A stretch of 63,414 bases of DNA from Thermomicrobium sp. (lineage in GTDB: Bacteria > Chloroflexota > Chloroflexia > Thermomicrobiales > Thermomicrobiaceae). A program made the translations under genes and the position numbers. A model generated the notes under the pieces. It saw only the letters and a program-made list of their open reading frames with translations, searched no databases and was not told the origin of the DNA. Numbering within the stretch: the stretch's first letter is position 1; each line of letters opens with the position of its first letter. The stretch is from assembly GCA_026419575.1 (NCBI GenBank), contig JANZZC010000114.1, positions 1 through 63,414 on the forward strand. Direction: 5' to 3'. Positions 3,943 to 63,414 of this stretch are shown piece after piece.

Positions 3943-5000
3943 CGGCTCACCTCGGTGGCGCGGCCGGAAGCGTCGTACACGGTGAACGCCCACCGCAGCG
4001 TGTCGAGCGTCACGTTCCCGCCGCTGACGACGAGCACGACCTTCTTCCCGGCCAGGCGATCGCGCAGGCGGTACGCCGCGGCCAGCGCCGCTGCTCCGGC
4101 TCCCTCCGCGACCACGCGCGACTCGAGGAGTTCGACCATCGCGCAGGCGAGTTCCTCATCGCTGACGAGCACGATCTCGTCGACGCACTCGCGGATGATG
4201 CGGAGCGGCAACTCGAAGGCGACGCGTGTCGCGATTCCCTCGGCGAAGGTGTGTCCGTGGACGAGTTCCAGGAGCTGGCCGCGTCGCCACGACTCGTAGA
4301 CGACCGGCATGCCGGCCGCTTGCACCCCGATGACCTGGATGACGGGGTTCACCGTCTTCATGACGATCCCCGTGCCGCAGACGCCGCTCCCGGCGCCGAT
4401 CGGCACGATCACGGCCTCGACGTCCGGCAGGCTCTCCACGATCTCCAGCGCGTACGTCCCGACCCCGGCGATCAGGTCGGGTTCGTTGGCCGAATGGACG
4501 TAGCGCAAGCCCTCCGCCGCAGCTCGTGCCTCGCAGGCCAGGCGGGCCTCGTCGAAGTCGCGGCCGGTGAGGACGACCTCGGCACCCAGCCGGCGCATCG
4601 CCGCGACCTTGAGCGGATTGGCTCCCTCGGGCGCGTAGACGATCGCGCGGACGCCGAACAGCCGCGCGGCATAGGCGATCGATTGCCCGTGGTTACCGGT
4701 CGACGCGGTGACGACGCCGCGAGCGCGTTCCTCGGGCGAGAGCTTGCTCATGAGGTAGATGCCGCCACGGACCTTGAATGCCCCGATCGGCTGGAGCTGC
4801 TCGCACTTGAGGTAGACCTCGCAGCCCAATCGTTCGCTCAGGGGCGGGGCCGGCACGAGCGGCGTCGGCGCGAGATACCGCTGCACGACCGCTCGCGCAC
4901 GGAGGATCTCCTGGAACGTGGGTGGCTCCAACCGGTGGCCGTCTCCCACCCCGCGCACCGATACTCCCTCGTCGAAACCGGTCGTATCCCCCCACACCAT
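3939..5000 (-). CDS. ilvA: Threonine/serine dehydratase, PLP-dependent (fold type II)
   Basis: This 353-residue protein belongs to the threonine/serine dehydratase group of fold-type-II PLP enzymes, which deaminate L-threonine to 2-oxobutanoate (or serine to pyruvate). The PLP lysine lies in PIGAFKVRGG, the STGNHGQS loop binds the substrate carboxylate, GAGSGVCG contacts the cofactor phosphate, and SGGNV closes the fold. There is no C-terminal ACT-like regulatory domain, so it looks like the short catabolic or unregulated form rather than the isoleucine-sensitive IlvA; serine racemase is an alternative. Its stop overlaps the start of the TPR gene by four bases. The exact start is uncertain because the first 20 residues are poorly conserved in style and no strong ribosome-binding site is seen. 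Confidence 0.88.
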   Translation of the reverse strand: MVWGDTTGFDEGVSVRGVGDGHRLEPPTFQEILRARAVVQRYLAPTPLVPAPPLSERLGCEVYLKCEQLQPIGAFKVRGGIYLMSKLSPEERARGVVTASTGNHGQSIAYAARLFGVRAIVYAPEGANPLKVAAMRRLGAEVVLTGRDFDEARLACEARAAAEGLRYVHSANEPDLIAGVGTYALEIVESLPDVEAVIVPIGAGSGVCGTGIVMKTVNPVIQVIGVQAAGMPVVYESWRRGQLLELVHGHTFAEGIATRVAFELPLRIIRECVDEIVLVSDEELACAMVELLESRVVAEGAGAAALAAAYRLRDRLAGKKVVLVVSGGNVTLDTLRWAFTVYDASGRATEVSR

Positions 5001-60633: not shown

Positions 60634-61584
60634 ATGGCAGGTACCGAACTGTTTCCGATCGCGTTTTTCGAAGGCCGTTTCGTGCCGATCGGAGAGGCGA
60701 AAGTCAGCATCGCGACGCACGCGCTCCAGTACGGGACCGGTGTCTTCGCCGGTATCCGCGGCTACCTCGATCGGGACGGCCAGACGATCAACATCTTCCG
60801 CTTGCCGGACCACATGCGGCGCCTGCTGCAGTCGGCGCGGCTGCTGCGCGCGGAGCTCCCCTACGATGCCGAGCAGCTCGGGGAACTGATCGTCGAGCTC
60901 GTGCGGCAGAACGCTCCGCGCACCGATGTCTACATCCGGCCGTTCGTCTACAAGGCCGACCTGGAGATCGGTCCCAAGCTCAAGGGAGTGCGGGACGAGC
61001 TCGCCATCTACATGCTGCCGATGCAGGAATACCTGCCGATCACGCACCCGATCCGGCTGATGACGAGCTCCTGGATGCGGACGGTCGACGTCGTCATCCC
61101 CAGCCGCGCGAAGGTCTGCGGCGCGTACGTCAACTCGGCGTTCGCCAAAGACCAGGCGATGGAGTGCGGCTTCGACGACGCGATCATGCTCAACCATCAC
61201 GGCAAGGTGGCCGAGGGGAGCGCGGCGAACCTGTTCATCGTGCGCAACGGGACGCTGATCACGACACCGGTGACCGCGGACATCCTCGAGGGGATCACTC
61301 GCCGGACGATCCTCGAGTTCGCCCACGATCTGGGGATCCCGGTGGAGGTCCGTGAGATCGACCGCAGCGAACTCTACATCTGCGACGAGGCGTTCCTCTG
61401 CGGGACCGGGGTCCAGATCTCGCCGATCGGGAACATCGACGGCCGGACGATCGGCACGGGCCAGATCGGACCGATCACCGCGCGCTTGCAGCAGCTGTAC
61501 CTCTCGGTCGTGCGCGGGGACGAGACGCCGTATCGGCACTACCTGACGCGCGTGCCGGTAGCGCGCGAGGCGGAGGCCCGCTGA
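60634..61584 (+). CDS. ilvE: Branched-chain amino-acid aminotransferase
   Basis: The 316-residue class IV aminotransferase interconverts valine, leucine and isoleucine with their 2-oxo acids. It has GTGVFAGIRGYLDRDGQ, RLPDHMRRLLQSARLL, YIRPFVYKADLEIGPKL, PLP lysine in SRAKVCGAYVNSAFAKDQA, EGSAANLFIVRNGTLITTPVTADILEGITRRTIL, and LYICDEAFLCGTGVQISPIG. It is close to the canonical IlvE, unlike the paralog at 43894. ATG 60634 has AAGGAGGG upstream. Confidence 0.95.
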   Translation: MAGTELFPIAFFEGRFVPIGEAKVSIATHALQYGTGVFAGIRGYLDRDGQTINIFRLPDHMRRLLQSARLLRAELPYDAEQLGELIVELVRQNAPRTDVYIRPFVYKADLEIGPKLKGVRDELAIYMLPMQEYLPITHPIRLMTSSWMRTVDVVIPSRAKVCGAYVNSAFAKDQAMECGFDDAIMLNHHGKVAEGSAANLFIVRNGTLITTPVTADILEGITRRTILEFAHDLGIPVEVREIDRSELYICDEAFLCGTGVQISPIGNIDGRTIGTGQIGPITARLQQLYLSVVRGDETPYRHYLTRVPVAREAEAR

Positions 61585-61642
61585 GCGGCATGGTACCCTT
61601 GGCCGGCTGGTCGGGGGGCCGAGCTCCGGTCTGCGGGAGGTC

Positions 61643-63385
61643 ATGAGGCGAGGGGTGCGACGGGGTTCGCTGGTCTTCCTCATCGTCGGCATGCTCGTGC
61701 TCTCGCTCGCCTGCCGGCGTACGCCCTCGGCGGGAAGCGAGACACCGGCGTACGTCGCTCCGACCGCTGGAGCGACGGTGGCTGTTCCGGCACCGGTCGC
61801 GTCCGACGCTCCGGGAACGAGCGCGACGCCGGCTCCGGTCGCGGTCCAACGCACGGCGACGCCGCTCGCCGGGCCGGGGACGAGCCGAGGGATCGTCGAG
61901 GCCGGTTTCGAGGAACCGCGGACGTTGAACCCGCTCTTCGTCGCCGATCCGCTCTCCGAGGCGCTCAGCCGTTTGCTGTTCGACGGCCTGGTCGCGCTGG
62001 ATCCGGCGACCGGTCAACCGGTGCCGGCGCTGGCCGAATCCTGGGAGGTCAGCGCCGACGGCACGGTCTACACGTTCCACCTGCGGCAAGGGGTCCGCTG
62101 GCACGATGGCCAGCCGTTCTCGGCGATCGACGTGGTGTTCACCTACCAGCGTCTCCTCGATCCCGACGTGCGCTCTCCGCGCTACTCGCGTCTCGCCGAG
62201 CGCGTCAAATCGGTCGAACTCGTCGACAGCGACACGGTGCGGATCACGCTGATCCGTCCCGATGCGTCCTTCTTGCCGACGCTGGGGACGATCGGCATCG
62301 TACCGGAGCACGTGCTGGGGACGGTCTTGCCGCAGCAGCTGGTGACCGATCCGTTCGGCCTCTCCTCGGCCGTGGGAACCGGCCCGTTCATGTTCGGGCA
62401 GTGGATGCGCGGCGTCTCGCTCACCCTGCGGACCAATCCCGACTACTACCGTGGGGCGCCCCGCGTGCCGCAGTACACCTATCGGGTGGTCAGTACGCTC
62501 GAGGAGTTGCAGCAGGGTCTGGCGGACGGGACGATCGACTGGGCGGTCGTCGATGCGGCGCAGGTCGGTCAGTTCGCGGTGCCGCGCGGGGTGGTGGTCG
62601 AGCGCTACCCGGGATACGAGCTCGTCCTCGTCGCCTTCCAGCTCGACCCGGCGAAGAGCAAGCTCTTCGCTGACCCGCGCGTGCGCCAGGCGCTGATGCT
62701 CGGAACCGACCGGGCGACGCTCGTCGACAAGGTGTGGGGAGATCGCGCGCGGGTGGCCGAAGGGCTCCAGCCGCCGGCATCCTGGGCGGCCGGCGAGCCG
62801 CCGGTCCGGTACGCCTACGATCCGGCCGAGGCCCAGCGGCTGCTCGAAGAGGCGGGATGGGTGCCGGGCGACGACGGGATCCGCGTGCGGGAGGGCCAGC
62901 GCTTGCAGTTCCGCTTGCTGGCGACGGGTACCGACTCGAGCCGCCGCGCGGTGGCTGAACTCCTCCAGCAACAGTGGCGTGCGATCGGCGTTGCTGTGGA
63001 CCTGGAGCTCGCCTCGTGGGCGGAAGTCCGGCGCCGAGCGACGCAGGAACGAGACTTCGATGCGCTGCTGATCGGCGTCCTCTGGGACGTCGATCCCGAC
63101 CAGAGTGCCGTTTGGTCGAGCGACTCGTTCTTCGACGGTTTGAACTTCGGACACTACCTGAACTCCGAGGTCGATCAGCAGTTGGTCGAGGCCGTCGCGA
63201 CGACCGATCGCGCGCAGCGGACGGAGCGCTACCGTGCGATCGAGGAACAGGTCCTGCGTGATCTGCCGGTGCTGCCGATCGCGTTTCCCGACGTCGTGGT
63301 GGTGCGGTCGGAGCGGCTCCAGGTGCCGGTGCTGAACGCGCTCGTCGTCCGAACGCGGGTCGGGATCGAGCAGTGGAACCTGGAG
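61643..63385 (+). CDS. Oligopeptide-type solute-binding lipoprotein (3' end lost at contig end)
   Basis: The first 581 codons of an SBP_bac_5 protein. The signal sequence GSLVFLIVGMLVLSLAC looks like a lipoprotein with an imperfect lipobox, followed by a Thr/Ala/Pro-rich linker. The fold is clear: GFEEPRTLNPLFVADPLSEALSRLLFDGLVALDP, LAESWEVSADGTVYTFHLRQGVRWHDGQPFSAIDVVFTYQRLLDP and VGTGPFMFGQWMRGVSLTLRTNPDYYRGAPR. ATG 61643 has GGGAGG upstream. The codons after 63385 (LSLIHISEP) come from adapter and are not part of the protein. Transporter permeases, if any, would lie beyond this end. Confidence 0.92.
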
Positions 63386-63414
63386 CTGTCTCTTATACAC
63401 ATCTCCGAGCCCAC
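63386..63414 (+). other. Illumina Nextera transposase adapter remnant (not genomic)
   Basis: The 29 bases begin with CTGTCTCTTATACACATCT, the Nextera mosaic-end adapter, and continue into the read-2 adapter arm. Its translations LSLIHISEP and, on the other strand, MCIRDS and YKRQ are known adapter-derived peptides. It should be trimmed from the assembly. Confidence 0.98.

Follow-up and report, generated by a model that had tools for sequence, protein, structure and literature searches.

Residual Nextera adapter at the end of a Thermomicrobium contig and at other contig ends of the same draft genome

Do the last 29 bases of a Thermomicrobium sp. contig, through which the reading frame of a solute-binding protein stays open, belong to the genome or to the sequencing library? 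The window analysed here (63,414 nucleotides) is the entire contig C84 of a draft genome (G000) with 2,703,387 bases, 174 contigs and 348 contig ends, and position 63414 is the final base of this contig.

Identity of the terminal bases

The window closes with 29 bases (63386-63414) that read CTGTCTCTTATACACATCTCCGAGCCCAC. The first 19 of them, CTGTCTCTTATACACATCT, correspond to the Tn5 mosaic end with no mismatch (63386-63404), and this is the sole match in the window when both strands are searched with up to three mismatches allowed. Shuffled versions of the window sequence gave no match to the mosaic end (0 of 100 shuffles). Bases 63405-63414, CCGAGCCCAC, match the start of the Nextera read-2 arm (10 bases). 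String comparison shows that the initial 29 bases of the 34-base read-2 adapter string are identical to 63386-63414; in the available parts of the two sources, PMC6460022 gives the string as a parameter for trimming, and PMC11970672 lists it as a primer alongside methods with Nextera XT index primers. We thus assign two features to this end.

63386-63404, forward strand: Tn5 mosaic end of the Nextera adapter, 19 bases, not genomic; exact match, unique in the window, 59 copies in the genome, all contig-terminal.
63405-63414, forward strand: read-2 arm of the Nextera adapter, first 10 bases, not genomic; exact prefix of the adapter as printed in the available parts of PMC6460022 and PMC11970672.

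Compared with the Illumina Nextera transposase adapter of the read-2 side (CTGTCTCTTATACACATCT followed by CCGAGCCCACGAGAC), 29 of 29 bases are the same and in the same order, and the adapter is joined to genomic DNA at its mosaic end. Unlike the full adapter, the copy in C84 stops 10 bases into the arm, at the contig end. A sequence-only reading of this DNA had named the terminal 29 bases as mosaic end plus read-2 arm, and this identification is correct to the base. The segment encodes nothing biological: it is ordinary residual Nextera adapter, an artefact of a common laboratory kind and without biological novelty.

Reading frames and the break at 63385

Four features overlap or adjoin the adapter.

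61643-63385, forward strand: solute-binding lipoprotein of family 5 with 581 genuine residues, short of only its last few residues and the stop; PF00496 (SBP_bac_5) E = 3.7e-89, with orthologues.
63386-63412, forward strand: nine false residues, LSLIHISEP, on the binding protein; from the ORF translation, with differing orthologue C-termini.
63229-63414, reverse strand: spurious antisense ORF of 61 amino acids, beginning MGSEMCIRDS; from the ORF list, no family match.
61475-63400, reverse strand: spurious ORF of 641 amino acids that starts with MYKRQ and runs antisense to the binding protein; from the ORF list, no family match.

The forward ORF (61643-63412) terminates in LSLIHISEP, and we label its product a lipoprotein from an N-terminal signal and cysteine in the translation, which we take to be the corresponding motif. 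Orthologues from five genomes of the genus (G001, G002, G004, G005 and G006) share 76-82% identity with the protein, and their alignment with it reaches residue 580-581, encoded by the final codons ahead of the adapter. Past position 581 these five carry 3-8 unrelated residues of their own and then a stop, and six family-level orthologues carry 1 to 3 residues. Because orthologues stop 1-8 residues past this position, the binding protein is nearly complete, and the false extension replaces only about 1-8 missing residues. Both antisense ORFs have their first codons in adapter sequence, the MGSEMCIRDS frame at 63414 and the MYKRQ frame at 63400. Searches of PHROGs and NCBIfam with the 61- and 641-residue products returned no match, nor did a Pfam search with the 645-residue open frame at 61475-63412, a longer form of the MYKRQ ORF. 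Two effects that had been anticipated from the letters, false residues on the binding protein and antisense ORFs with MCIRDS- or YKRQ-like starts created by the adapter, are thus found here in full.

It had also been claimed that the contig end is an artefact, which holds for the adapter bases 63386-63414 and not for base 63385. The latter is sound genomic sequence, since the orthologues align through the codons ending there. What ends C84 is an assembly gap of the ordinary kind, and the adapter does no more than decorate the break. In G001, the region downstream of the orthologue matches C85:108-3286 with 84% identity. Both C84 ends map to one strand of G001 with a spacing of about 64 kb, which agrees with the 63.4 kb of the contig. 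C84 and C85 are, by this downstream match and this spacing, chromosome neighbours with a gap between them. The trimmed end of C84 and the start of C85 share no overlap, and the gap is not closed. Bases 1-106 of C85 are G-rich (with runs of 6 and 11 G) and give no convincing alignment to G001; they could be end sequence of low quality or an intergenic stretch that is difficult to sequence. Poor coverage may have caused the gap beside this stretch.

Adapter ends across the draft genome

A k-mer screen of other contig ends had been proposed together with the adapter assignment, and we ran it on the whole draft genome. With up to two mismatches allowed, the mosaic end gives 59 matches, all of them exact, and the same pattern read backwards gives none. 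When all sites were fetched, 59 of 59 proved contig-terminal and outward-pointing (34 at right contig ends, 25 at left). The mosaic end is followed by nothing in 43 cases, by the read-1 arm in 9, by the read-2 arm in 6, which include the right end of C84, and by GACGA, a read-1 arm with one base differing, in 1. None of the 59 mosaic ends has any sequence after it other than an arm, of at most 18 bases. A 12-base adapter prefix, screened genome-wide, is found at 68 of the 348 contig ends, about a fifth, and the nine additional sites, all fetched, are likewise terminal. We refer to contig ends with at least 12 adapter bases as adapter ends (n = 68). There is no adapter at the left end of C84, and the mosaic end is absent from the genus relatives G001, G002, G004 and G006 (0 matches). 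Residual adapter measures exactly 19 bases at 43 of the 68 adapter ends and ranges from 12 to 37 bases at the others. This excess at exactly 19 bases suggests that a trimming or assembly step removed the arms and left the mosaic end.

Wild-type Tn5 has a weak target preference, A-GNTYWRANC-T, according to the available part of PMC8224930. We scored the nine genomic bases adjoining each adapter by their matches to the seven specified positions of GNTYWRANC. The mean over the 68 adapter ends is 3.56 of 7. Moving the scored window inward by 1 to 49 bases gives a mean of 2.32 and a maximum of 3.04 (49 offsets), and random sampling of the window sequence (5000 draws) never gave a mean score above 2.81. 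The bases concerned in C84 are the following.

63377-63385, forward strand: last nine genomic bases, presumed Tn5 cut side (AACCTGGAG); 3 of 7 against GNTYWRANC.

The fit of C84 itself is moderate, the motif signal being collective over the 68 ends. Because the adjoining bases carry the Tn5 target preference, the adapter ends look like real tagmentation cuts. A comparison of all 68 trimmed ends revealed no nine-base overlap of the kind expected for the two sides of one cut. Only one pair of adapter ends overlaps: after trimming, the right end of C94 and the left end of C122 have 19 bases in common (0 pairs in 50 shuffles), and these two ends are probably adjacent in the chromosome.

Origin of the adapter and its occurrence in public sequences

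We regard it as practically certain that 63386-63414 is untrimmed Illumina Nextera adapter, left by a tagmentation cut after 63385 and a read-through that the assembler kept. The exactness of the adapter, its confinement to contig ends, its outward orientation, the presence of both arms, the Tn5 preference and the differing orthologues are direct observations. The transposase would have cut the DNA directly after 63385 during tagmentation, with the adapter joined there. With a fragment shorter than the read length, sequencing would have continued past the insert, through the mosaic end and into the read-2 arm, and the assembler would have retained this read-through where coverage, presumably thin at the gap, ended.

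Three other origins can be weighed against this one. The contig end could be the first bases of a genuine Tn5/IS50 copy, or of a Tn5 insertion engineered into the cell, as the 19-base mosaic end is what we take to be a functional recognition end for Tn5 transposase. Natural IS50 ends are, however, not identical to the mosaic end, and the 59 copies lack a transposon body, are all cut off at contig ends and are followed by the read-1 arm in some cases and the read-2 arm in others. The Tn5 transposase DNA-binding domain (PF14706) is absent from the genome, whereas an E. coli control was positive, and a Tn5 insertion is thus extremely improbable. That the frame is open throughout the 29 bases would fit a genomic origin, with an unusual C-terminus or terminator resembling the adapter by chance. 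Against such a coincidence, the expectation for a 29-mer of this kind in the window is ∼4e-14 as calculated from base composition, the mosaic end recurs on 59 unrelated contig ends, and the orthologue C-termini differ from the translated adapter and stop after 1-8 residues; we consider it the least credible of the three, with a likelihood of practically nil.

The adapter could finally mark a false join whose partner was later trimmed, in which case the bases just before 63386 might be foreign as well. Internal adapter joins do occur in other records (in L117 with a run of N, and in a Paracoccus plasmid; see below), but the orthologue alignment of C84 is unbroken to residue 580-581 at 76-82% identity, and both ends of the contig map to G001 at the expected distance. 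A false join is a shade less improbable than a Tn5 insertion and still very unlikely, and we retain adapter read-through after a tagmentation cut as the origin of the terminal bases.

The same adapter is found well beyond this genome. In a sample of 400 genomes of the phylum, 9 contain the mosaic end, the present genome included. In the GTDB genome collection, at least 119 stretches contain the 29-base string, and 125 of the 128 matches listed lie within 60 bases of a stretch end, which need not be a contig end. In viral contigs the 19-base mosaic end occurs in at least 120 stretches, and 126 of the 127 matches listed lie within 150 bases of the outward stretch end, again not necessarily that of a contig. 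Phage and plasmid records contain the 29-base string in 34 of 50,697 and 9 of 72,556 cases, respectively; among complete E. coli genomes, no record contained it at the search sensitivity applied. Adapter residue in public MAGs and viral contigs resembles that described here in string, terminal position and outward orientation, whereas in the present genome 43 of 68 adapter ends break off precisely where the 19-base mosaic end is complete.

Three interior cases differ in their setting. In a Paracoccus plasmid deposited as complete (NZ_CP102357.1, 139656-139684; L346:701-729), adapter and an apparent index lie within the annotated replication initiation protein WP_263467444.1, where they are translated as CLLYTSPSPRD. 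The complete genome of Streptococcus phage D1024 (MH000603.1, 33833-33861; L347:701-729) contains the adapter in a stretch annotated without genes after the DNA primase. An archaeal MAG contig (L117; JAOAJQ010000047.1, locus 3948-3976) has an interior adapter beside a run of nine N, which looks like a scaffold join across untrimmed adapter. Our literature search for the adapter peptides returned no report of them as assembly artefacts, and we make no claim that it is new to the literature; only VYKRQ matched any papers, one of which is, in its available part, about Tn5 insertion fusions. Adaptors are counted among common contaminants in the available part of the FCS-GX paper (PMC10898089).

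It is conceivable, if rather doubtful, that the signature of removed arms and a remaining mosaic end could serve to recognise assemblies from the same pipeline and to tag false protein termini at scale. As the adapter string occurs in many public assemblies, even within an annotated plasmid protein, the value of the finding is that of a warning only: this genome has at least 68 adapter ends, which should be trimmed before terminal genes are called, repeats compared or contig overlaps searched.
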